In this document: piece by piece, positions 15,899 through 32,235 of the stretch
Position numbering within the stretch: the first letter of the stretch is position 1
Layout: every line of letters starts with the position of its first letter
DNA from: Deltaproteobacteria bacterium
GTDB taxonomy: Bacteria > Myxococcota > XYA12-FULL-58-9
Assembly: GCA_016218825.1 (NCBI GenBank)
Contig: JACRCV010000109.1
Location: 1-46,483, forward strand
DNA: 46,483 bases
Direction of reading: 5' to 3'
The notes under the pieces: generated by a model
What the model was told of the DNA's origin: nothing
The model's database searches: none
Seen by the model: the letters and a program-made list of their open reading frames with translations, nothing else
Program-made: the position numbers and the translations under genes

Positions 15899-16147
15899 TC
15901 AACCGCCGGAAGCCGCTGCCTTGGGGGGGTGGTCGAAGATCTCTTCGTGGCCAAGCACATCGGCGGCGTAGCGGATCGCGGCCTTGATGTCCTCCGGCTC
16001 GAGCCGTGGGTACGCATCAAGAAGCTCCGCCTCGCTCGCGCCCTCGCTGAGCTTTCGCAGCACGGCTTCGACAGGAATGCGCGTGCCTCGGATCACGGGT
16101 TTGCCCATCATCACGGCCGGGTTGATCTCTATTCGCTCGAGCACCAT
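15899..16147 (-). CDS. DUF433 antitoxin
   Basis: The product is 82 residues. ATG 16147 follows GAGAGGA with five-base spacing; earlier starts (16165, 16210) lack a site. The sequence IEINPAVMMGKPVIRGTRIP, VEAVLRKLSEG and AYPRLEPEDIKAAIRYA is diagnostic of DUF433, the antitoxin partner of DUF5615 PIN-like toxins. It probably still folds and binds DNA, but its toxin partner downstream is truncated, so it may be an orphan. Confidence 0.92.
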   Translation of the reverse strand: MVLERIEINPAVMMGKPVIRGTRIPVEAVLRKLSEGASEAELLDAYPRLEPEDIKAAIRYAADVLGHEEIFDHPPKAAASGG

Positions 16148-16163
16148 GACCGTCCTCTCGCCC

Positions 16164-16192
16164 ATTGTCAGCCGGCCATCGCACCAAAGCAA
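16164..16192 (-). promoter_or_regulatory. Candidate promoter for DUF433 gene
   Basis: On the minus strand, TTGCTT (16192-16187) and GACAAT (16169-16164) are separated by 17 bases. A start near 16157 would leave a ten-base leader that contains the ribosome-binding site. Both boxes are imperfect. Confidence 0.4.
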
Positions 16193-16214
16193 GGGCGAGC
16201 ACGCCGCCAACCCC

Positions 16215-17588
16215 TCAGCCTACCTTGCGCAACGCCTCCTGGATGACGCGGTCGCACTGCGCCGCCGTGGCCCGAAACTCGCGCGACACGCGCCGGTCAT
16301 TGGCGACGAGCGCCCAGAACGACCGCGCGGCGCTCCCCGCGCGCCGCCACCCTTCCACCTGACCAGGGATCGGCAGCGGCGGAACGTACGGACGCGCGAC
16401 GATCTCGCCGCCCTGCGGCGCGAACAACATCGGCAACATGTCGTAGGCCGGCGCGAGCTTCATGCGGCCCTGGTCGAAGAACAGGGTGGCGTTGCCGAAG
16501 TGCCGGTCGGTGTTGCCGATGAACCCCGAGAAGTCCCACCAGAACCCGAGCGCCGCTACGTCGTCCGCTTCAAGCCAGCCGCGTCGGAGCAGCCGGGCAC
16601 CGGCGTCGGGCCAGGAGTCGAGCGCGCCGAAGTACTCGACGTCGATGGCGAACAGCGAGCAGGTGGCCCGCCGTCCGTGGAGGCCTACCCGATCGAAGCG
16701 CTCAACCTCGAGGAATCGTCGCGTCGGGCCGTCCAAGACCCGACTCTTGGCTGCAGGCAGCCCGGCCGCCTGCAGCACGCCGTGGGCGAGGTGCTCAGCG
16801 ACGAGCAGGTCGGCCCAGCGGTCGCCGACCGCCGTGCCGCGCGCCGGCGAGGACTTGACGAGGACGTGCCTCGACGAGGCCGCTCTCACGAGCGTCGCGA
16901 ACTTGGGCTGCTCGCCACCCGCCGACGAGCCCGGCGGCTGGTCCGCGAGCGATTCGCCGGCCAGCCGTTCGTACACCAAGCCGCCGTCGTCGATGCGGGG
17001 CGGCTCCGGGGCTGCCATGCGCTCGCGCATCAGGAGGTCGTGGGCGCTCTTGCCGACCAGCCAGTTCCCGGGATTGTCCGCGCCGGTCTTGGTGAGGGCG
17101 GTGAGCACGTGGTGCTCTTGCCAGTCGGCCAGGCGAGCCGGCACCCCGAGCGCGGCCTGCAGCCGGCGAGCGAGGGCACGGCCGAGGAAGCCTTGCGGCG
17201 TCGAGTCATGGAGGAAGAAGGGGAGGCCGGTGAAGGCGCCGTTGCCGCCGCTTCCTGCCATCCACGCGGCTTGCTTCTGCGCGGCCACGAAGACGAAGCC
17301 CTTGGGCTCGACGGCGAATATTGCTCCCACCTCTTCGGGCGTGCCCGACTCCGAGACCGCGTACAACGGCCAGCGGCTGCCGAGGTCGACGACATCTCTG
17401 GGGGCCGCATAGTAGACGCCGGTCCTCTTCTTGCCGAAGCACACGACCTCGCCGGGGGCCGAACGGATCCATCGCGAGAAGGTAGACCGGTTCGGACCTC
17501 CGAGAGCGTGCCCGAGGTCGACGAAGCGACTCGGGCCGCGGGACCGAAGCAACGCGACAACCCCCCGAGCCCGCAGTGACGTGGACAT
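16215..17588 (-). CDS. HipA-family serine kinase toxin, YjjJ/HipH type
   Basis: The product is 457 residues, close to E. coli YjjJ. The N-terminus (about 1-60) is a winged-helix-like DNA-binding domain (VVALLRSRGPSRFVDLGHAL), absent from classic HipA. The kinase part has the glycine loop GSSAGGEQPKFA, a VLVKSSP lysine strand, the catalytic loop NTDRHFGN and the metal-binding LAPAYDMLP. The HipA family phosphorylates tRNA-loading enzymes and slows growth. YjjJ types carry their own HTH and have no separate hipB gene, and none is present here. ATG 17588 is preceded by an unusually AT-rich stretch. Confidence 0.9.
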   Translation of the reverse strand: MSTSLRARGVVALLRSRGPSRFVDLGHALGGPNRSTFSRWIRSAPGEVVCFGKKRTGVYYAAPRDVVDLGSRWPLYAVSESGTPEEVGAIFAVEPKGFVFVAAQKQAAWMAGSGGNGAFTGLPFFLHDSTPQGFLGRALARRLQAALGVPARLADWQEHHVLTALTKTGADNPGNWLVGKSAHDLLMRERMAAPEPPRIDDGGLVYERLAGESLADQPPGSSAGGEQPKFATLVRAASSRHVLVKSSPARGTAVGDRWADLLVAEHLAHGVLQAAGLPAAKSRVLDGPTRRFLEVERFDRVGLHGRRATCSLFAIDVEYFGALDSWPDAGARLLRRGWLEADDVAALGFWWDFSGFIGNTDRHFGNATLFFDQGRMKLAPAYDMLPMLFAPQGGEIVARPYVPPLPIPGQVEGWRRAGSAARSFWALVANDRRVSREFRATAAQCDRVIQEALRKVG

Positions 17589-20711: not shown

Positions 20712-21359
20712 ATGGCTGAAGCGCTCAACGATCGGATCCAGGCACTGGAGCGGGAGCTCTCGTCTCTGCGGCGGCATCTCGCGGCGTCGGGTCAGCTCGC
20801 GGCGGCGGTGGTTGGCGAGGCGGGGGCGTCGGCGGCGCCGCGGGCGGTGGTGGGCGAGTCGATCTTGGCGTTTTCGGCTGGTGACGTTCGTCTGGGGTTG
20901 CGGCTCGGCGAGGTGTTGGAGGTGGTGCGGATGGTGGAGCCGACGCCGCTCGCGGACGCGTCGCCCGGGATTCTGGGGGCGATCGACTACCGCGGCACGA
21001 TCATGCCGCTCTTGGATCTCGCGGTTCGTCTGGGGCGGCCGGCGCGGGCGTTCGGGGTGGATTCGAAGATCATCGTCGCGAAGACCGCCGGGCGGCAGTT
21101 CGGCGCCGTGGTCGACGAGGTCCAGGGGCTGGTGCCCGTGACTGCCGACGCCTTTTGTTCCGACGCCAAGCTGTCGATGGGCGAGGTCCCGGTCGAGCGG
21201 CGCTGTTTGTTGGGGGCGCTGCGGGCGGAGGGCGGGCTGCTCCTGGTGTTGGATCTGGCCGGGGTGTTGTCCTGGATCCCGGCCGAGCCTACGGCAGCGA
21301 AGGACGGCCCGGCCGAGAAGGCGCCGCCGGCTCGCCGCAAACGGAAGGACAAGGCGTGA
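20712..21359 (+). CDS. cheW: CheW-like coupling protein
   Basis: The product is 215 residues. A short coiled-coil-like start (RIQALERELSSLRRHLA) leads to a CheW domain at about 48-185: ILAFSAGDVRLGLRLGEVLE, then VV, GAIDYRGTIMPLLDL and QFGAVVDEVQGLV. The C-terminus is a lysine/arginine-rich tail (ARRKRKDKA). It couples receptors to CheA in a chemosensory array. It is the first gene of the operon and overlaps cheR (GTGA). The N-terminal helix and basic tail are additions to the standard CheW. Confidence 0.9.
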   Translation: MAEALNDRIQALERELSSLRRHLAASGQLAAAVVGEAGASAAPRAVVGESILAFSAGDVRLGLRLGEVLEVVRMVEPTPLADASPGILGAIDYRGTIMPLLDLAVRLGRPARAFGVDSKIIVAKTAGRQFGAVVDEVQGLVPVTADAFCSDAKLSMGEVPVERRCLLGALRAEGGLLLVLDLAGVLSWIPAEPTAAKDGPAEKAPPARRKRKDKA

Positions 21360-22792
21360 TCTCGCGGCCCCACGAATCGGAGGCCAAGGTGACGGCGGTG
21401 GCGGACACGGCGGTGTTCGAGCCGGTGACCTTCATCGGCGACCATCTCAAGCGGCACTGTGGGATGTCGTTTCGCGAGCACAACCTCGACGATTTGGCGC
21501 GCGCCGTGCGTCGCGCGGCGGCGCAGTTCACCGCGGGCGACCCGTTGCGGCTGGCGGCGTTGTTGCCCGGGACCGAAGGGGAGCAGGCGCTCGGTTGGCT
21601 GGTGCGGGAGCTGACGATCGGCGAGAGCTACTTCTTCCGGATCTTCGAGCAGTTCACGACCCTGCGGCGGGTCATTCCGACGCTCCACGACGAGAAGGTC
21701 AAGGCCGGCGATCCCGAGTTTCGGGTCTGGAGCGCCGGCTGCGCCGCCGGCGAAGAGGCGTACTCGCTCGCGATCTTGTTGCGGCAGAGCCTGCCGCGGG
21801 GCACCCCGGGTCGAGTGATCGGGACCGACATCAACCCCGAGTTTCTGTCGCGGGCGGCGGCGGGGGAGTACTCGAGCTGGTCGTTGCGCGGTCTCGAGGA
21901 GCACGAGCGCGCCGCGTACTTCGAGCAGACCGGCGACAACCGCTTCTTGCTGCGCGCCGACTTCAAGACCGGGGTGAGCTTCCGCTACCACAACCTGCGC
22001 CACGATCCGGCGGTGGTGCTCGTCGGCGGCGCGTTGTTCGACGTCATCTTGTGTCGCAACGTCCTGATCTACTTCGAGCCCGACATGGCCGCAGCGGTCG
22101 CCCTGCAGCTCGCCGGGGTGCTGGGGCGGGGCGGCTATCTCCTCTTTGGCCCCTCCGACCCGGTGCCGGCCGAGCTCGAGGGGCTCGAGCGCTGCGAGGA
22201 CAACGCCGGGATCATGTTCCACCGGCCGTTCGTAGCGCCGCCGGTCACCGCGGCGACACGGCAGCGGCGCCGCCCGAAAGGCGCCGGGCGCGCGTCAGCG
22301 AAGGCCCCGCCCCCCGGACGCCGTACGGTCGTGACGCGGCCGGCGGCGGTCGCGCCCGAGCCCGCGACACCGGTGGACGCGGCCGCGCTCCGCCGGGCCG
22401 AGGCGCATCTGCTCGCGAATCGTGGTCAGTTGGACGCTGCGGTGGCGAGCGTCGAGAGGTGGTTGTCGACCGCGCCGACGTCCTTGGACGCGAGCTATCT
22501 GCTCGCGTCTCTAGAGCGCCGCCGCGGCAACGACGGCCGGGCGTTGGAGCTGTTGCGGCAGTGCCTCTACCTCGATCCATGCTACGTGCTGGCGCACTTC
22601 GCCACTGCCGAGATCCACGCCGCCGCCGGCAACCGCGACGCGGCCCGCGGTGGTTTCAGCAACACCTTGGATCTGCTAGCGAATCTCGACGATGAGGCGC
22701 TGCTCCCCGGCTCGGACGAGATCACCGCGGGGTGGCTGAAGCTCGTCGTCAACGGCCGTCTGCGGCGCGCGGAGACGGAGGCGAAGCGGTGA
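21356..22792 (+). CDS. cheR: CheR methyltransferase with C-terminal TPR region
   Basis: The product is 478 residues from GTG 21356, which overlaps the cheW stop. The CheR domain (about 20-290) has YFFRIFEQF, the SAM-binding VWSAGCAAGEEAYSLAI and the late motif ILCRNVLIYF. A Pro/Arg-rich linker (about 300-340) leads to TPR-like helices (LDASYLLASLERRRGNDGRA, LELLRQCLYLDP, FATAEIHAAAGNRDAA). It methylates glutamates of the receptor with S-adenosylmethionine. CheR-TPR fusion is also the design of FrzF in Myxococcus. The next cheW starts inside its stop (GTGA). Confidence 0.93.
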   Translation: MISRPHESEAKVTAVADTAVFEPVTFIGDHLKRHCGMSFREHNLDDLARAVRRAAAQFTAGDPLRLAALLPGTEGEQALGWLVRELTIGESYFFRIFEQFTTLRRVIPTLHDEKVKAGDPEFRVWSAGCAAGEEAYSLAILLRQSLPRGTPGRVIGTDINPEFLSRAAAGEYSSWSLRGLEEHERAAYFEQTGDNRFLLRADFKTGVSFRYHNLRHDPAVVLVGGALFDVILCRNVLIYFEPDMAAAVALQLAGVLGRGGYLLFGPSDPVPAELEGLERCEDNAGIMFHRPFVAPPVTAATRQRRRPKGAGRASAKAPPPGRRTVVTRPAAVAPEPATPVDAAALRRAEAHLLANRGQLDAAVASVERWLSTAPTSLDASYLLASLERRRGNDGRALELLRQCLYLDPCYVLAHFATAEIHAAAGNRDAARGGFSNTLDLLANLDDEALLPGSDEITAGWLKLVVNGRLRRAETEAKR

Positions 22793-23406
22793 GGCCGGTG
22801 CCAAGACGGGCGAGTGGTGCCGCGATCGACTGGACGTCGATCTACACCCGCCTCGACGAGGTCGAGCGCAAGGTCAAGAGCGTTCGGGCGGTGGCGCCGG
22901 AGCGCGTGCACGAGATCTTGCGGCGCCGAGCGCTGGAGCTGTCGCGCACCGACGTCCAGGGCGATTCGCGACGCTCGACGGCGCGGCACAGCATGCTGGT
23001 GTTCAGCGTCGTCAACGGCCAATACGCGGTCGCCGCCGAGCTCGCGAGCGAGATCTTGCCGCTCGGCCGGCTGACGCCGATTCCGCTGGCGCCGAGCTAC
23101 GTCGCCGGGGTCACCAGTCGCCGCGGCCAGATCCTGATGTTGCTCGACCTGCGGCGGTTGTTGGGCTTGGCGGCGCTGCACGCCGCCGACCTGGTCAAGG
23201 TCATCGTCATCGGCCAGGCGCCGACCGAGGTCGGGCTGTTGGCGGAGAACGTCGAGGGCGTCGTCGAGGCCGCGGACAGCGACGTCGCGGCGCCGCTCTT
23301 GGCCGGGGACTACGTTCGGGGCATTGTCGGCGGCAAGATCACGCTGCTCGACGCCAAGAAGCTACTGCAATTAGGTGCGGCAACCGCCTACCCGCAGACG
23401 AGGTAG
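22789..23406 (+). CDS. cheW: Second CheW-like coupling protein
   Basis: The product is 205 residues from GTG 22789 (GTGA overlap with cheR). The N-terminus (about 1-65) has a basic coiled region (RLDEVERKVKSVRAVAPERV) and the CheW domain follows: MLVFSVVNGQYAVAAELASE, YVAGVTSRRGQILMLLDLRR and VGLLAENVEGVVEA. Having two CheW proteins in one operon mirrors FrzA and FrzB. The stop lies 55 bases before the two-CW gene. Confidence 0.9.
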   Translation: MRPVPRRASGAAIDWTSIYTRLDEVERKVKSVRAVAPERVHEILRRRALELSRTDVQGDSRRSTARHSMLVFSVVNGQYAVAAELASEILPLGRLTPIPLAPSYVAGVTSRRGQILMLLDLRRLLGLAALHAADLVKVIVIGQAPTEVGLLAENVEGVVEAADSDVAAPLLAGDYVRGIVGGKITLLDAKKLLQLGAATAYPQTR

Positions 23407-23461: not shown

Positions 23462-23851
23462 ATGGCAACCAAGAAGACAGCGAAGAAGGCAACGAAGAAG
23501 GCAACGAAGAAGGCAGGCAACAAGAAGGTCAGCCGGCGAGCGGCGGTCGCAAAGGCCAAGCCGAAGAAGGCCGCGCGCCGGTCGGCGGCACCGTCGCCGG
23601 CCGCGGCGTTTCAGGTCGCGGCGCCGGTGGTCGCGATCCCGTGTTGGCAGTACAAGAAGTGCGGCCGCGAGCCGGGCGGCGTCAAGATCGCGGAGCTCGG
23701 CATCTGCCCGGCGTATCCGAACCACGGCCGCGACTGCTGGATGGCCGCGGGGACCTTCTGCGGCGGCCAGGTGCAGGGCACCTACGCCGAGAAGCTCGGT
23801 AATTGCCAGAAGTGTGAGTTCTACCAACAGGTGATGAGCGGCATCGTTTGA
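23462..23851 (+). CDS. Two-CW domain protein with histone H1-like lysine-rich tail
   Basis: The product is 129 residues from ATG 23462 (GGAG at -11). Residues 1-40 hold 14 Lys and 4 Arg in TKKA-type repeats, like a histone H1 tail and encoded by a near-perfect 12-base tandem repeat. Residues 60-120 form a two-CW domain: C61-W62, C67, C82, C92-W93, C100, C115 and C118 with [17 protein letters not shown] and NCQKCEFY. Two-CW domains are small cysteine modules often linked to signalling proteins; the cysteines suggest metal or redox binding. The tail could bind DNA. It sits between cheW and the receptor gene, so a role in the array is likely (inference). Confidence 0.85.
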
Positions 23852-23877: not shown

Positions 23878-25245
23878 ATGTCAGAGACCGGTGAGAAAGT
23901 CGCGACGGGTGCCAGAGCTCGGGGCAGGAAGAACGCCGGCGTGCCGGCGGCAGGGCGCGGGCCCGACCTCGAGCTCGAGGTGAAGCGCCTGCGGGTCTAC
24001 GCCGAGAACGTCGACAAGCAGGTGATGTTGTTGGGGAACGAGTTGGCGTTCGCCAACTGCGTCAAGTACGGGCTGGTGGAGCCGTTCTTCACCACCGACG
24101 CGGCTTTCAACGTCACCTACATCAACGGCAACATGCTGGCGCTCTGCGGTCGCAAGCGCGACGCCTCCAAGCTGACGCTCGACGACGTGTTGCGCGTCGA
24201 TGAAGAGGACGTCGTCGCCGTGGTGCAGGGCTGCGCCAAGACCGGCAAGCCGGCGATGGGCATCAAGGCGACGTTGCACGACGCCGAGGCGGTGCGCCGG
24301 CGTTTCTTGATCAACGCCGGGCCGCTGAAGAAGTCCACCGGCGAGATTGTCGGCATCTACTGCATCCTCCAGGACATCACCGATCTCGAGGGCCTGGAGG
24401 AGCGCAATCGGCTCTTCGACTTAGTGCGCGAAGCGACGGTGACGCTGCGCACCGCGGTCTCTCAGATCTTGAGCACGATCGCGGAGCAGAACGCGAGCTT
24501 GAGCGAGCAGTCGGCGGCGGTGGCCCAGACCACGGCGACGATCAAGGAGACCAGTCAGGCGGCGCAGCAGACCGCCGAGCACGCCCAGAGCGTCATCGAG
24601 TTCGCGGATCGGGCGGAGGAAGTGTCGGGAGAAGGGCAGCACTCGGTCGAGCGCGCGGTCGCCGCGACCAAGGAGGCGCACGACCGGGTGGTCGGCATCG
24701 CCGACAGCGTCGTCGAGCTCTCGGAGCAGGCGTCGCAGATCGGCGAGATCGTCACCACGGTGAGCGAGCTCGCCGACCAGACCAACATGTTGGCGCTGAA
24801 CGCCTCGATCGAGGCCGCCAAGGCGGGAGAGTACGGCAAGGGCTTCGCGGTGGTCGCGGTCGAGATGCGCAAGCTCGCGGAGCAGTCGCAGCGCTCGACG
24901 CACGAGATCCGCGGCATCCTCGGCGAGGTGCAGAAGGTCGTGCGCCAGGTGGTGAAGGCCACCGAGGACGGCAGCGCCAAGGTGGACGAGGGCGTCAAGC
25001 TCTCCGGGGTCGCGGGCGAGAACATCGACAAGCTGGCGCACACGATGGTCGAGTCGTCGCAGGCGGCCAAGCAGATCGCGATGTCGGCGCGGCAACAGTC
25101 GGTGGGCTTCGACCAGGTCTCGAAGGCCATGGGCAACATCGCCCAGGCCACCACCGAGTCGGTCGCCGCGGTGCGGCAGCTGGAGTCGGCGGCCCGCGAC
25201 CTCCGCGGCCTCGCCGAACGGCTCACGGAGCTGGTCCAGGGCTAG
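23878..25245 (+). CDS. Soluble methyl-accepting chemotaxis protein with PAS domain
   Basis: The product is 455 residues. ATG 23878 is chosen for its AGGA site; a TTG at 23848 is possible. A basic N-terminus ([18 protein letters not shown]) leads to a PAS domain at about 60-170 ([20 protein letters not shown] ... [11 protein letters not shown]). The signalling domain has the hairpin tip [20 protein letters not shown], then [16 protein letters not shown]. No membrane span is present, so the receptor is cytoplasmic. Soluble receptors with basic N-termini include FrzCD, which binds the nucleoid. The ligand is unknown; PAS could sense redox state or a cofactor. Confidence 0.93.
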
Positions 25246-25249
25246 AGCC

Positions 25250-27544
25250 ATGCCGCTCGACGTCAACAAGCGCCGGCAGCTGCTCGAGATCTTCCGCGAA
25301 GAAGCGGTGGAGGGTCTGCGCGTCATCAGCCGGAGCCTGATCGCCTGCGAGCAGGCCGATTCGCCCGAGGCCCGTAAGCAAGCGCACGACGAGGTGCGGC
25401 GTCACCTGCACAGCCTCAAAGGGTCGGCGGCCGCGGTCGGGTTGATGGAGCTGCAAGCGCTGATGCACGAGCTCGAGACCTTCCTCGGACCGACCTCGCC
25501 CGAGGACGGTCGGCAAGTCGACATCGCGCTCGCCGCGGTGGAGACCGCGGAGGCCTGGCTGCAGCGCGGCGTCGCCGGCGAAGCCATCAGCGCCGAGGAG
25601 GTCAGCGCCGCGCGCCAAGCGCTCACCGCGCCAGCCACGGCACCCGCCAAGGCTGCGGCGTCACCACCGCCGGCGGTTGCGGCCCCGGCGCCGGTGGCGT
25701 CACCGGTCGTGGCCCCGGCCGCGACGTCTGCAGCAGCGCCGGCGGCTCTCGAGCCAGGTCGGGAGGGGGGCGCGTCGCCGGCGCCGACGGTCCAGGAAGT
25801 CGCGGTGGCGGCGGCGGCCCCGGCGTTGATGCGGGTGGCGACCGAGCGGCTCGATGATCTCCTCGGCAAGGGTGAGGAGCTGGTGGTCGCGGGGGCCAGG
25901 CTCCGGCCCCAGGTGCAGCGCCTCGCCGACCTGGCGGCGGAGATCGAAGCGGTGTTGTTCGAGGTGCGCCGCGCCGAGCGGGCGCGGCGTCGCGGCGGCG
26001 AGCGCGGCGGCAACGACGGCACGCCGCTGACGGCGTGGCGGGAGCGCCTCACCGAGATCAAGAAGCGCCTGACCGGCAGTCGCTTCGAGGTCGCCGCCGA
26101 CCACGAGCGGCTCTCGACCTTGACCACGACGCTGCTCGACGCAGTGCGGGTGATGCGGATGTTGCCGGTCGGCGAGGTCCTGGAGAGCTACGAGCGCGCG
26201 GTCCGCGAGCTGGCGCGCGACCAGGGCAAGAACGTTCGCATGGTGGTGCAGTGCGGCGACGTGCGCCTCGACAAGCGGGTGCTCGACGCGGTGCGGGCGC
26301 CGCTGTTGCACCTGGTGCGCAACGCGGTCGCCCACGGCATGGAGACCCCGAGTGAGCGCCTCACGGCCGGCAAACCGCCGGTCGGCACCTTGCTGCTGTC
26401 GTCGGAGACCCGCGGCAACCGCGTGGCGATCGAGGTCTGCGACGATGGCCGTGGCGTCGACGTCGACGCGGTGCGCCGGGCGGCGACCGAGCGCGGCCTG
26501 GTGCCGGCCGCCGCGGTCGCCTCGTTGTCGGCGGCGGATTCCCTGAACCTGATCTTTCATCCGGGCCTCTCGACCCGGCGCGAGGCCGACACCGCGGCCG
26601 GGCGTGGCGTCGGGCTGTCGGTGGTGTACGAGACCATGGTGCAGCTGCGCGGCGACGTGCGGGTCACGACCACCGCCGGCGGCGGCACGATCTTCAGCCT
26701 GCTCTTGCCCCTGACCTTGGCCGCGACCCGCGGGCTCTTGGTGGCGGTTGGCGGCGAGGTGTTCGCGTTGCCGGTGCCGTCGGTCGAGCGGGTGTTGCGG
26801 GTAGCGGCGACCGACGTCCACCGGCTCCAAGGACGGGAGACGATCGACGACGGCCTCGGGCCGATGCCGCTCGTCGAGCTCGCGTCGCTGTTGCAGCGGG
26901 TCAGCACCGCCGACAAACGCGGCCGCCGCGCCGCGGTCGTCGTGATCACCGCCGATGGGCGGCTGGCGCTCTTGGTCGACAAGATCTTGGACGAGCACGA
27001 GATCATCATGCGCGACCTACCCGGCGGTCTGTCGCACATCGACGTGCTGGCGGGCGGCACCCTCCTCGAGGACGGGCGGGTGGTGCCGGCGCTGAACGTC
27101 GACGGCTTGCTGCGCGCCGCCGCCGCGCGTCCGGTGGCGGCGACGGTCGCGAAAGCCGACAGCCGCCGGATCGTGGTCGCCGACGACTCGCCCACCACCC
27201 GCAGCTTGATCGCCGGCGAGGTCGAGGCCGCCGGGTTCGTGCCTCTCGCCGCCGCCGACGGCCAGCAGGCGCTGCAGCTCTTGGATGACAATGACGCGGT
27301 CGCCTTGATCTCCGACGTCCAGATGCCCAACCTCGACGGCCTGGGGTTGGTGCGCGCGGTGCGCGCCAACCCGCGGATCAAGGACCTGCCGGTGGTGCTC
27401 GTGACCTCGAGAGACTCGGAGGTCGACCGCCAGCTCGGCGCCCAGGCCGGGGCCGACGCCTACCTCATCAAGAAAGAGATCACCGGCGAGCGACTCCTCG
27501 GGGTCCTGGGCCAGCTGTTGCGCCGCAGCGGGAGGGCCACGTGA
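25250..27544 (+). CDS. cheA: Hybrid CheA histidine kinase with C-terminal receiver
   Basis: The product is 764 residues. An Hpt domain with phospho-His H54 (HLHSLKGSAAAVGL) is followed by a Pro/Ala linker (about 125-185) and no recognisable P2. The dimerisation region precedes the ATPase, with N-box HLVRNAVAHG, G1 DDGRGVD and G2 GRGVGLSVV. A CheW-like P5 is followed by a receiver from about 639 (VVADDSPTT, phospho-Asp D689 in ISDVQMPNLDG). The architecture matches FrzE (CheA-CheY). It starts four bases after the receptor stop and overlaps cheB (GTGA). Confidence 0.95.
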   Translation: MPLDVNKRRQLLEIFREEAVEGLRVISRSLIACEQADSPEARKQAHDEVRRHLHSLKGSAAAVGLMELQALMHELETFLGPTSPEDGRQVDIALAAVETAEAWLQRGVAGEAISAEEVSAARQALTAPATAPAKAAASPPPAVAAPAPVASPVVAPAATSAAAPAALEPGREGGASPAPTVQEVAVAAAAPALMRVATERLDDLLGKGEELVVAGARLRPQVQRLADLAAEIEAVLFEVRRAERARRRGGERGGNDGTPLTAWRERLTEIKKRLTGSRFEVAADHERLSTLTTTLLDAVRVMRMLPVGEVLESYERAVRELARDQGKNVRMVVQCGDVRLDKRVLDAVRAPLLHLVRNAVAHGMETPSERLTAGKPPVGTLLLSSETRGNRVAIEVCDDGRGVDVDAVRRAATERGLVPAAAVASLSAADSLNLIFHPGLSTRREADTAAGRGVGLSVVYETMVQLRGDVRVTTTAGGGTIFSLLLPLTLAATRGLLVAVGGEVFALPVPSVERVLRVAATDVHRLQGRETIDDGLGPMPLVELASLLQRVSTADKRGRRAAVVVITADGRLALLVDKILDEHEIIMRDLPGGLSHIDVLAGGTLLEDGRVVPALNVDGLLRAAAARPVAATVAKADSRRIVVADDSPTTRSLIAGEVEAAGFVPLAAADGQQALQLLDDNDAVALISDVQMPNLDGLGLVRAVRANPRIKDLPVVLVTSRDSEVDRQLGAQAGADAYLIKKEITGERLLGVLGQLLRRSGRAT

Positions 27545-28626
27545 TCGTCGTTCTCTTGGTGGCCGCGCGTGCCGACGCCCGCGCCGCGGCGCGCGCCGCC
27601 CTCGAGAGCGCCAGCGACATCGCGGTGTGCGGCGAGAGCGGCAGCGCGCGCGACATCGAGCGCCTGCTGCAGAAGTTCCGCCCCGAGGTCATCATCCTCG
27701 GCAGCAGCCTCGGCAAGGCCGTGCTCCTCGAGGTCACCGAGAGGATCATGCAGGAGACCCCGACCGCGGTGGTGGTGCTCGAGGACGCCGGGCCGGAGGT
27801 CAGCGACCAGGCGGGGTTCGAGGCGCTGCAGCGCGGCGCGGTGGAGATCGCCCGCAGCCCGGCCGGGGTCGACAGGGCGCGCGCCAAGAGGCTCTCGGCC
27901 GAGCTCGTCGACACCGTGCGGATGGCGAGCCGGGTGCGTTTGATCCGCCGCCGGCCGGTGGTGACGCCGGCCGCGAAGGGCGCGGGTCGTGCGTCGGCGG
28001 TGCGGGCGCTGGTGGCGATCGGCGCGTCCACCGGCGGGCCGCCGGCGTTGGTCCAGATCTTGAGCGCGCTGCCGGCCGCCTTCAGCGCGCCGATCCTCGT
28101 GGTGCAGCACATGACCGACGGTTTCAGCGAGCAGTTCGTCAGCTGGCTGTCGAGCATGGTGCCGCAGCGGGTCATGATCCCCAAGTCGGGAGAGGTCCCC
28201 GAGCCCGGCGTGGTCTACGTCGGCCAGGAGGGCCAGCACCTCGGCGTCAACGCCAACGGCACGCTGCGGGTCTCCGACGATCCACCGTTGAACGGCCACC
28301 GGCCGGCGGCGACCGTGCTGTTCGAATCCCTGGCCGGCTCGAGCATCTCCAACCGCGTCGGGGTGATTCTGACCGGCATGGGTGACGACGGCGCGCGCGG
28401 CCTGGTGGCGCTGCGCCGCTCCGGCGGTTACGTGCTGGCGCAGGACGCGGCCTCGTGTGTCGTCTTCGGCATGCCACAGGCGGCGATCGCGCTCGGCGCC
28501 GCGAACGAGGTCGCGGCCCTCGACGACATCGGACCGCGCCTGTTGGTGCTGATGCTCGACGACACCGCGCGCCAGGACGATCAGAGCCCGGGCCCGGCAC
28601 GGCGCCGGAAGCGGGTGGAGTCGTGA
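27541..28626 (+). CDS. cheB: CheB methylesterase with degenerate receiver domain
   Basis: The product is 361 residues from GTG 27541 (overlapping the cheA stop). The C-terminal esterase (about 155-340) has the catalytic triad S163 (GASTGGP), H190 (VVQHM) and D283 (LTGMGDDGARG). The N-terminal domain folds like a receiver but lacks the acidic pair, and the phospho-acceptor Asp is replaced (VIILGSSLGK, G54). It therefore cannot be switched on by phosphorylation in the standard way. It removes methyl groups from the receptor; its control may be constitutive or by a different partner. Confidence 0.92.
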   Translation: MIVVLLVAARADARAAARAALESASDIAVCGESGSARDIERLLQKFRPEVIILGSSLGKAVLLEVTERIMQETPTAVVVLEDAGPEVSDQAGFEALQRGAVEIARSPAGVDRARAKRLSAELVDTVRMASRVRLIRRRPVVTPAAKGAGRASAVRALVAIGASTGGPPALVQILSALPAAFSAPILVVQHMTDGFSEQFVSWLSSMVPQRVMIPKSGEVPEPGVVYVGQEGQHLGVNANGTLRVSDDPPLNGHRPAATVLFESLAGSSISNRVGVILTGMGDDGARGLVALRRSGGYVLAQDAASCVVFGMPQAAIALGAANEVAALDDIGPRLLVLMLDDTARQDDQSPGPARRRKRVES

Positions 28627-29987
28627 CCGGTCTGCCGGCTTTCAAGCCGTTTCGCCTGGTGCAGAAGGTGCGCGAGGACGGCAAGATCGTGTTCTACGAC
28701 GCGGCGTTCATGCGCGGTACCACGACGCGCCCGGTGGTGTTGAAGGTGTGGCCGACGGCGATCGGCGGCCTCGACAAGCTCGAGGCGCAGCAGTTCGAAG
28801 ACGCGCGCGCCGCCACCGCGCATCCGCACGCCAACGTCGTCGCGGTGTGTGACTTCGGCTGGAACGAGGGCATGAGCTACCTGGCGATCGACTGCGAGCG
28901 CGACCAACGCGACCTCAACAAGCTGCAAAAGCGCGCCCGGGTGCGCAAGCACGGCGTCGACGTCACCGGCGCCGTCAGCATCGCGGTCGAGACCTGCCAG
29001 GCGATGCAGCACCTCGCGAGCAGCTTGCCGGAGGTCAAAGGCGTCAAGCCGATGGTCACGCCCCTCGACATCTGGGTGAGCACCCAGGGCGGCGTCAAGG
29101 TGGTGCCGGTGCGCAGCTTCTTCGCCAGCGCGTTGTCGGCGCGTCAGGTGTTGTACTACCTCGCGCCCGAGCAGGCGGTCGGCGGCGCGGCCACCGAGAA
29201 GAGCGCGGTGTTCGTAATCGCGTCGCTGCTCTTCGAGCTGTTGTGCGGCGAGAAGTTGCTCGGCGAGGGCACCGAGACCGAGATCGTGCAGCGGATGCTG
29301 GAGATCGACACCGACAAGGCGGTCGCCGCGCACCCCGAGATCCCGGCGGCGCTGCAGCCGGTCTTGAGAACCGCCCTCAGCCGCGAGCCCCAACGCCGCC
29401 AACGCGACCCGGCGGCGCTCTCTGCCGAGCTCGCCCAGAGCGTCGGCGCGGCGGTCGTCGAGCACCGCGCCGCGGCGATCCGCGACCTGATCGCCGGCCT
29501 GTTTCCGGAGGAGGCGGCGAGCGCCGGCGCGCTCGGAGAGCTGACGCCGTCGTTCGGGGTGCGGTTGCCGATTGCCGGCTCCGGGCCGGCGCCGGCCGGG
29601 CAGTGCCGCCACAAGGTCCTGGTCGCCGATGACTCGTCCACGATCCGCGCGGTCATCAAGGTCTACCTGGTCGGCAACCAGCTCGACTATCTCGAGGCCG
29701 CCGATGGCCGCGCCGCCTTCGAGCTCGCGCGCCGCGAGCTGCCCCGCCTCATCATCTCCGACATCAACATGCCGGAGCTCAACGGCCTGGACCTGTGCCG
29801 CAAGGTGAAGGCCGACGCGACGCTCGCCAAGACCCCGTTCGTGCTCTTGACCTCGAAGAAGGACGACGAAGACCGACGCCTCGGCGCCGACGCCGGGGCC
29901 GATGCCTACCTCACCAAGCCGGTCGGCTCGGACGAGCTCGAAGAGGTCATCCAGCGCTTGCTGGGGATTACCTTCAAGAAGGCCTAG
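28623..29987 (+). CDS. Pseudokinase-receiver fusion, probable output of the chemosensory system
   Basis: The product is 454 residues from GTG 28623 (overlaps the cheB stop). Residues 1-270 align with Ser/Thr kinases: VVLKVW has the beta-3 lysine K41, YLAPEQ near 179-184 matches the APE motif, and EKSAVFVIASLLFELLCGE matches helix F. The catalytic HRD is absent (MVTPLDIWV near 144-152) and DFG is replaced by PVR near 162, so it is a likely pseudokinase. An intact receiver follows from about 328 (VLVADDSS, D380 in ISDINMP, LLTS, YLTKPV). CheA could phosphorylate it, turning the pseudokinase into a signal-dependent binding module. The stop overlaps the opposing GGDEF gene. Confidence 0.85.
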   Translation: MTGLPAFKPFRLVQKVREDGKIVFYDAAFMRGTTTRPVVLKVWPTAIGGLDKLEAQQFEDARAATAHPHANVVAVCDFGWNEGMSYLAIDCERDQRDLNKLQKRARVRKHGVDVTGAVSIAVETCQAMQHLASSLPEVKGVKPMVTPLDIWVSTQGGVKVVPVRSFFASALSARQVLYYLAPEQAVGGAATEKSAVFVIASLLFELLCGEKLLGEGTETEIVQRMLEIDTDKAVAAHPEIPAALQPVLRTALSREPQRRQRDPAALSAELAQSVGAAVVEHRAAAIRDLIAGLFPEEAASAGALGELTPSFGVRLPIAGSGPAPAGQCRHKVLVADDSSTIRAVIKVYLVGNQLDYLEAADGRAAFELARRELPRLIISDINMPELNGLDLCRKVKADATLAKTPFVLLTSKKDDEDRRLGADAGADAYLTKPVGSDELEEVIQRLLGITFKKA

Positions 29988-31080: not shown

Positions 31081-32235
31081 TCAATCCCCGGCGCGTCTCG
31101 ACGGCGGGCTCGCCGCAGCCTCGGCGCTGGTCTCGGTGGCGACCGGTGCCGTCATCGGGCTGGTCGGCGCCGGCGCCGCCGCGGCGGCCGCGGTCGCCAG
31201 GAGGTCGTAGACCTTCTTGCCCACCTTTGCCATCACGCGCTCGGCGTCACCGAGCTCGACGAAGCTCTTGGTGCACACGACGACGACGACCGGTCGGTCG
31301 GGCTGGACGTAGAGGATGCCGGCGTCGCAGGCGCGCCGGTGTTGGGTGCCGGTCTTGTGTGCCAGCGGCACCGCGGCCTGGAGACCCGACGTCAGGCGGC
31401 GGCGGCCGGTCTCGCACTGCTTCATGATCTCCAGCATCACCGCCGTCGACGCCGGTGACGCCAGGCGGCCCGACACCAGCGCCTCGAGCAGCGCCCCGAC
31501 CGCCTCGACCGGCGCCGAGTTCGCTTCGGTCGCGTAGTAGGCGTCGAACGCCGCCTCGATCTCGCGGCTCCGAAACGCGCGCCCGGCCGCGACGTACTCG
31601 CCCAGGAGCCGGCCCCGGCGCGTCATCGAGCGCGCCGCCCAGAGCTCGTAGTACTGTGCCGGCGACAGCGTCGCGCCGCGCGAGTCGACGCCGCCGAACA
31701 CCCGGCGCCGCACCTCGAGCATGGTCGTGAGCTCCCGAAAGCCGTCGATGCCGGCGCGCCCCAGCATCGCGTTGACGCTCTCGATGCCGATCCTCTTGAG
31801 CACCAGGTCGGTCGCGCCGTTGTCGCTGTGGGTCATCATCAGCCGGATGAGCTCGCGCATCGCGAAGCGCCCCGCCTGTCGGACCTCGTGCGAGCCGTCG
31901 CGCAGGTCGTCCTTGGTCACCTCGAGCTCTTCGTCGAGGCTCAAGCTGCCGGCGTCCACGAGCTGGAACGCGGTGATCATGACCGGGACCTTGACGACCG
32001 ACGCGAGGTAGAACGGGGTGGCGCCGTTGTGGGTGCAGCGCACGCCGGTCGCCAAGTCCTTTACGTAGACCGCCGCCTCACCGTCGAACTCTCGAGAGAT
32101 CTTCGTGATCTCCGACGTCAGGGTCACGGGCCACCGGGTCGGTGCCGCGCTCCCACTCGCGAGCCAACTCACGCAGCTGAGCGTCACGAGCCTTGCCCTC
32201 GCGCTCCTCCTGCTCTCGCGCCGCCCGTTGTGCAT
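31081..32235 (-). CDS. Serine hydrolase of class A beta-lactamase fold
   Basis: The product is 384 residues from ATG 32235; a GTG at 32127 is an alternative. Motifs of the penicillin-interacting family are present: S79-V-V-K82 (LASVVKVP), S137-D-N139 (THSDNGATD) and HKTGT near 290. A clear Glu166 loop was not identified. The N-terminus (RLVTLSCVSWLASGSA) could be a signal peptide. The C-terminus is an Ala/Pro-rich tail. It overlaps the acyltransferase gene by 158 bases with the longer start, which is unusually large. It may act on beta-lactams or cell-wall peptides. Confidence 0.82.
   Translation of the reverse strand: MHNGRRESRRSARARLVTLSCVSWLASGSAAPTRWPVTLTSEITKISREFDGEAAVYVKDLATGVRCTHNGATPFYLASVVKVPVMITAFQLVDAGSLSLDEELEVTKDDLRDGSHEVRQAGRFAMRELIRLMMTHSDNGATDLVLKRIGIESVNAMLGRAGIDGFRELTTMLEVRRRVFGGVDSRGATLSPAQYYELWAARSMTRRGRLLGEYVAAGRAFRSREIEAAFDAYYATEANSAPVEAVGALLEALVSGRLASPASTAVMLEIMKQCETGRRRLTSGLQAAVPLAHKTGTQHRRACDAGILYVQPDRPVVVVVCTKSFVELGDAERVMAKVGKKVYDLLATAAAAAAPAPTSPMTAPVATETSAEAAASPPSRRAGD

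Follow-up and report, generated by a model that had tools for sequence, protein, structure and literature searches.

Why a small protein that joins a histone H1-like tail to a cysteine-rich two-CW domain should be encoded inside a chemosensory operon is the question raised by the gene at 23462..23851 of the window, the whole stretch of 46,483 nucleotides analysed here. The original prediction held that such a protein could tether the chemosensory array to the nucleoid while its cysteines sense metal or redox state. The gene neighbourhood, the homologues of the domain, the composition of the tail and the receptor with which it is encoded all bear on this proposal.

The two-CW gene and its operon

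The operon and the parts of the two-CW gene are arranged as follows.

20712..21359, + strand, CheW 1 (domain match)
21356..22792, + strand, CheR with C-terminal TPR-type repeats (GTG start chosen by eye; domain searches used 21350)
22789..23406, + strand, CheW 2 (GTG start chosen by eye; domain searches used 22807)
23462..23851, + strand, two-CW protein gene (129 aa, H1-like tail plus seven-cysteine domain, from the translation)
23462..23641, + strand, N-terminal tail of the two-CW protein (residues 1-60, net charge +18, zero acidic residues)
23464..23515, + strand, 12-bp tandem repeat (4.3 copies, encoding TKKA repeats)
23639..23836, + strand, two-CW domain NF045718 (residues 60-125; profile score 84.2-84.8 bits, cut-off 35)
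23878..25245, + strand, PAS-MCP receptor with a basic N-terminus (ATG at 23878; searches used 23887)
25250..27544, + strand, CheA fused to a receiver domain (Pfam domains)
27541..28626, + strand, CheB with a degenerate N-terminal receiver (Pfam domains and inspection)
28623..29987, + strand, pseudokinase-like protein fused to a receiver (domain search and motif inspection)

The order is thus CheW, CheR with TPR, CheW, two-CW, PAS-MCP, CheA-receiver, CheB and kinase-receiver, and the placement of the ORF between cheW and the receptor gene is borne out, with CheW upstream and the PAS-MCP downstream. The sequence AGGAGA precedes the ATG at 23462. The receptor has no hydrophobic membrane stretch, its highest 19-residue hydropathy mean being 1.16. 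Outside the operon, on the minus strand of the window, a DUF433 protein lies beside a HipA_C-domain protein (15899-17588), possibly a toxin-antitoxin-like pair, and a beta-lactamase family protein is encoded at 31081-32235 (Beta-lactamase2, E 4.8e-47).

A complete two-CW domain with eight cysteines had been predicted; the domain is complete (84.2 bits), but its cysteines number seven. This is the full seven-cysteine set of the NCBIfam family NF045718, and seven is also the family norm, all being present in 64 of the 68 distinct cores to which 102 domain matches collapse. The window protein therefore shares with its family a full match above the cut-off and the seven cysteines, and differs from it in the 60-residue H1-like tail and in an operon containing a cytoplasmic receptor. 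Searched against Pfam at E 0.01, it gave zero matches, including none to an H1-like or linker histone family, and its matches to PDB sequences remained at chance level. The AlphaFold2 models have a mean pLDDT of 51.2 both for the full length and for the domain only, too low for structural use. The literature searched contained no paper under the family name or accession. The same genome contains four two-CW matches in total, and the three regions outside the window show no CheW, CheR, CheA, CheB or MCP match in BLAST comparisons with the window proteins.

Conservation of the receptor block

The block of CheR, CheW, two-CW and PAS receptor genes is common to four genomes, namely those of the window, G091, G182 and G875. 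In G091, the gene order is identical through the kinase-receiver gene; in G182, the match extends from CheW 1 to the start of CheA, where the contig ends; and in G875, whose contig is 3.3 kb long, it runs from the CheR end through the receptor. Counting the window's own, three of the phylum's 195 genomes contain a match to the N-terminal half of the receptor at E<=1e-8, and in all three the two-CW gene lies directly upstream. A genome of the same genus, G001 (86% complete), contains neither the two-CW gene nor this receptor half. The domain itself matches in 11 of the 195 genomes (10 above the cut-off), and che genes are found at G091:C113 and G182:C1108 only among the 12 phylum regions inspected, a set that leaves out the matches in G094, G135 and G007.

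Some genes of the block vary between genomes. In the window CheB, no receiver is matched by Pfam, and the usual phospho-acceptor Asp position appears, by eye, to be replaced there and also in G091. The HRD and DFG motifs of the kinase-receiver protein are not recognisable in the window, and both are kept in its G091 counterpart (Pkinase match, 1.4e-32).

Related arrangements are found in other genomes. Two MAGs, L014 (a Caldisericota bacterium) and L015, both encode a receiver, CheR, two-CW and a coil-PAS protein, followed in L015 by a histidine kinase. Alignment of the coil-PAS protein to the window receptor gives 32-35%, and an MCP domain is absent from the L015 protein, the copy that was scanned. 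L016 (a Myxococcales MAG) encodes a receiver-GGDEF protein, CheW, an ORF without a Pfam match and two-CW. Two-CW homologues thus adjoin che genes in several lineages, a complete lack of such adjacency having been set beforehand as refuting the original prediction. Because the pairing persists in L014 and L015, where the MCP domain is missing, the PAS part of the receptor would be the likely partner of the two-CW protein.

The lysine-rich tail and the basic receptor N-terminus

Both of the features first ascribed to the tail are present in the translation: 18 of the first 40 residues are lysine or arginine, and the TKKA-type repeats are there, encoded by the 12-bp tandem repeat. Residues 1-60 contain 14 K, 4 R and no D or E, so that every charged residue is basic. 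Such a composition is unique in the part of its own genome that was sampled. The scan took in every six-frame ORF of 60 aa or longer, 5,365 in number, over 1,087,862 bases made up of the window and 60 contig starts from its genome; all six frames were used since a longer antisense ORF overlaps the two-CW gene, and only the two-CW gene has a 40-residue stretch with at least 10 lysines and a net charge above +13; the runner-up reaches +13. A lysine-rich stretch in L125 (15 K in 40 residues) is of mixed charge and falls outside the >+13 list. Queried against the whole genome, the tail retrieves itself and then chance-level matches (E 0.57 and 3.4).

Compared with bacterial H1-like proteins such as AlgP and Hc2, the tail is likewise a repeat-encoded, acid-poor, lysine-rich segment, but it is located N-terminal to a cysteine domain and carries no H1-like Pfam match. 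Hc2 varies in length by lysine-rich pentamers (PMC2848022). The literature searched yielded no paper joining chemosensory and histone-like themes.

The tail is far less pronounced in the homologues. Ahead of the first cysteine, the window protein carries a net charge of +18 over 60 residues, compared with +4 over 21 in G091, +5 over 12 in G182 and, counted by eye, +2 over 22 in G875. The window tail has the highest N-terminal charge among 65 two-CW proteins compared, a set that keeps L013, L021, L031, L072 and L075 despite their unreliable starts (HTH-like or partial frames); six proteins with long N-terminal parts are listed separately. Many two-CW proteins begin with a few lysines, and the copies of L014-L016 and G229 are without such a tail. 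An N-terminal extension accompanies the cytoplasmic PAS-MCP operons in four of four cases, and its H1-like form occurs in the window genome alone. These four operons may descend from one ancestor, and their extensions would then not be four independent events. Provided that the array is located on the nucleoid, the H1-like tail is best read as a lineage-specific addition.

It is fairly unlikely that the two-CW domain is a functional chemosensory subunit whose tail grew, almost neutrally, as a low-complexity extension of a short basic N-terminus and has no specific role in placing the array. The tandem repeat, the confinement of such a length to one genome and the frequency of a few starting lysines in the family all fit neutral growth, but the 60 residues without a single acid, the exclusively K/R charge, the sole occurrence in the 1.09 Mb sampled and the basic extensions of G091 and G182 argue against it. 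An improbable alternative is that the tail has a different polyanion or surface as its target, such as polyphosphate, RNA, an anionic membrane or an acidic partner protein. In its favour, AlgP, an H1-like protein of Pseudomonas, has an effect on polyphosphate granules (PMC9239181), and TubY is reported to bind membranes and DNA through a C-terminal region (PMC7762940); however, no gene of the operon suggests polyphosphate or RNA, and the receptor is without a membrane stretch. DNA binding by the tail in the cell is about an even prospect.

The receptor has a basic N-terminus of its own. In composition only, its first 30 residues contain 6 K/R and 3 D/E in the window, 6 and 2 in G091, 10 and 4 in G182, and 8 and 3 in G875. 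L180 and L182, which we take to be FrzCD from the N-terminus, the length of 417 (L180, by eye) and the adjacent CheW and CheA, contain 6 K/R and 2 D/E over the same span. In L014 and L015, little sequence precedes the coil of the coil-PAS partners, and the counts are 6 K/R with 7 and 6 D/E, respectively; in the other che proteins of the window, the first 30 residues are close to neutral, with a net charge of -2 to +2. Since the basic N-terminus is present on four of four receptors and the other che proteins are near neutral, the receptor N-terminus is, from its composition, a conserved candidate tether, more conserved than the two-CW tail.

The comparison with FrzCD drawn in the original prediction is apt and can be extended, the window receptor and its three orthologues all having FrzCD-like basic N-termini. 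The N-terminal segment of FrzCD binds DNA without sequence preference, and deletion of residues 7-27 abolishes the gel shift (PMC5716589). The window operon and the Myxococcus Frz system share two CheW, CheR, a CheA-receiver fusion and CheB, as well as a receptor with a basic N-terminus and without a membrane stretch. However, the window receptor has a PAS domain and no HAMP match at E 0.01, whereas a di-HAMP is reported for FrzCD (PMC12077210), and the window operon contains the two-CW and kinase-receiver genes in addition. Orthology with Frz was rejected because the likeness of the window receptor to the FrzCD candidates is confined to the signalling domain, and because its best-scoring match in G049, a genome holding a FrzCD candidate, is L167, a HAMP-type receptor with a hydrophobic stretch and not FrzCD. 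The proposal of the H1-like tail as the tether is thus partly supported: the che linkage and the likeness to FrzCD support it, but the H1-like form is found in this genome alone and the receptor offers the better-conserved candidate.

Proposed role and two-CW genes outside chemosensory operons

The two-CW protein is probably an accessory chemosensory subunit, and it would be dedicated to a Frz-like pathway with a cytoplasmic receptor. Together with the receptor's sensory coil-PAS part, it could relay metal or redox information to CheA. The 12-bp repeat would, in this lineage, have expanded a short N-terminal extension into the H1-like tail, which probably keeps the two-CW subunit on the nucleoid, while the receptor is probably also held there through its own FrzCD-like N-terminus. 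As the receptor has this basic N-terminus, the two-CW tail would strengthen the attachment of the array rather than create it. The explanation as a whole, an accessory subunit of a Frz-like cytoplasmic array with tail-reinforced nucleoid attachment, is put forward tentatively, with slightly less than even confidence. Several points count against it: the strong tail is not conserved, most two-CW genes examined lie outside che operons, tail-less two-CW genes occur beside 4HB-type receptors, the four operons may have a common origin, and the receptor carries a PAS domain in place of the di-HAMP and has a best match in G049 other than FrzCD.

Metal or redox sensing by the two-CW protein is plausible, if somewhat doubtful. 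It fits the seven conserved cysteines, which may bind a metal as zinc or as an iron-sulphur cluster. In chemosensory proteins, redox or oxidant sensing through a zinc site is described for CZB domains (PMC6715182, PMC8262984 and PMC13370339). The likeness to CZB is one of functional analogy only, the two-CW protein being a separate small cysteine-rich protein; a CZB identity was rejected, with no CZB among the Pfam matches of the two-CW protein or the receptor.

A further and unlikely extension is that two separate basic tails, one of the receptor and one of a detachable two-CW subunit, keep the cytoplasmic array on the chromosome and that metal or redox state tunes its seat on DNA, acting by a change in the two-CW fold or in its hold on the receptor. 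If true, the attachment of the array would itself be a regulated variable. Nucleoid-held arrays are already known from FrzCD, and should this operon represent a second, independently built case, it would test basic receptor tails as a general rule for cytoplasmic arrays. For the two-CW family, the che linkage provides a first testable biological setting.

It is very unlikely that the two-CW protein is instead the output of the pathway, a DNA-binding effector that is modified by signalling, influences transcription or the nucleoid in turn and is neither sensor nor tether; the H1-like tail and the standalone small protein within a che operon would suit such a role, but neither a receiver domain nor an HTH was found by the Pfam search, and the orthologues are without the strong tail.

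Beyond the chemosensory operons, two-CW genes are abundant. In the phylum of G199 (which holds L018, Nitrospiraceae), matches occur in 129 of 295 genomes, with up to 14 places in each (G404, G480 and others). Twenty-eight of 30 loci of this phylum (L062, L063 and L079-L106) have no CheW, CheR, CheA, CheB or MCP match within ~1.5 kb; in L082, the two-CW gene lies beside an MCP match, and in L087, beside a weak CheA match that is read as an ordinary histidine kinase. Among seven further regions of the same phylum, che genes are found near two-CW in two, both from G229. One contains MCP, two-CW, MCP and CheW, and the other two two-CW genes, a PAS histidine kinase and a CheW-receiver (CheV-type) protein; the tail-less two-CW proteins of G229 adjoin 4HB-type receptors with a hydrophobic stretch at their start. 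The phylum of G197 gives matches at 1e-10 in nine of 377 genomes and adds a single new block, that of G875; around L204, the other two-CW copy of G197, none of CheW, CheR, CheA, CheB and MCP is matched. L214 has a CheR match in its vicinity, on the opposite strand.

This distribution would suit a general small protein that entered the operon by chance and has no chemosensory function, a reading made highly improbable by the position between CheW and the receptor kept in four genomes and by the location next to CheR and coil-PAS genes in two more. Fusions join the domain to histidine kinases as well as to a cNMP-binding Ser/Thr kinase and a PP2C phosphatase. From these fusions and the mostly non-che loci, two-CW is a signalling-associated module whose chemosensory role is one of several.

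At 2475-4999 of L017, a two-CW/cNMP-binding/Ser/Thr kinase gene and a two-CW/PP2C phosphatase gene adjoin, forming a kinase-phosphatase pair that shares the domain. A histidine kinase carrying two-CW at its C-terminus recurs, L018 and L019 being examples, and in L013, L072 and L075, short-loop two-CW-like domains follow, by eye, an apparent HTH-type N-terminal part.
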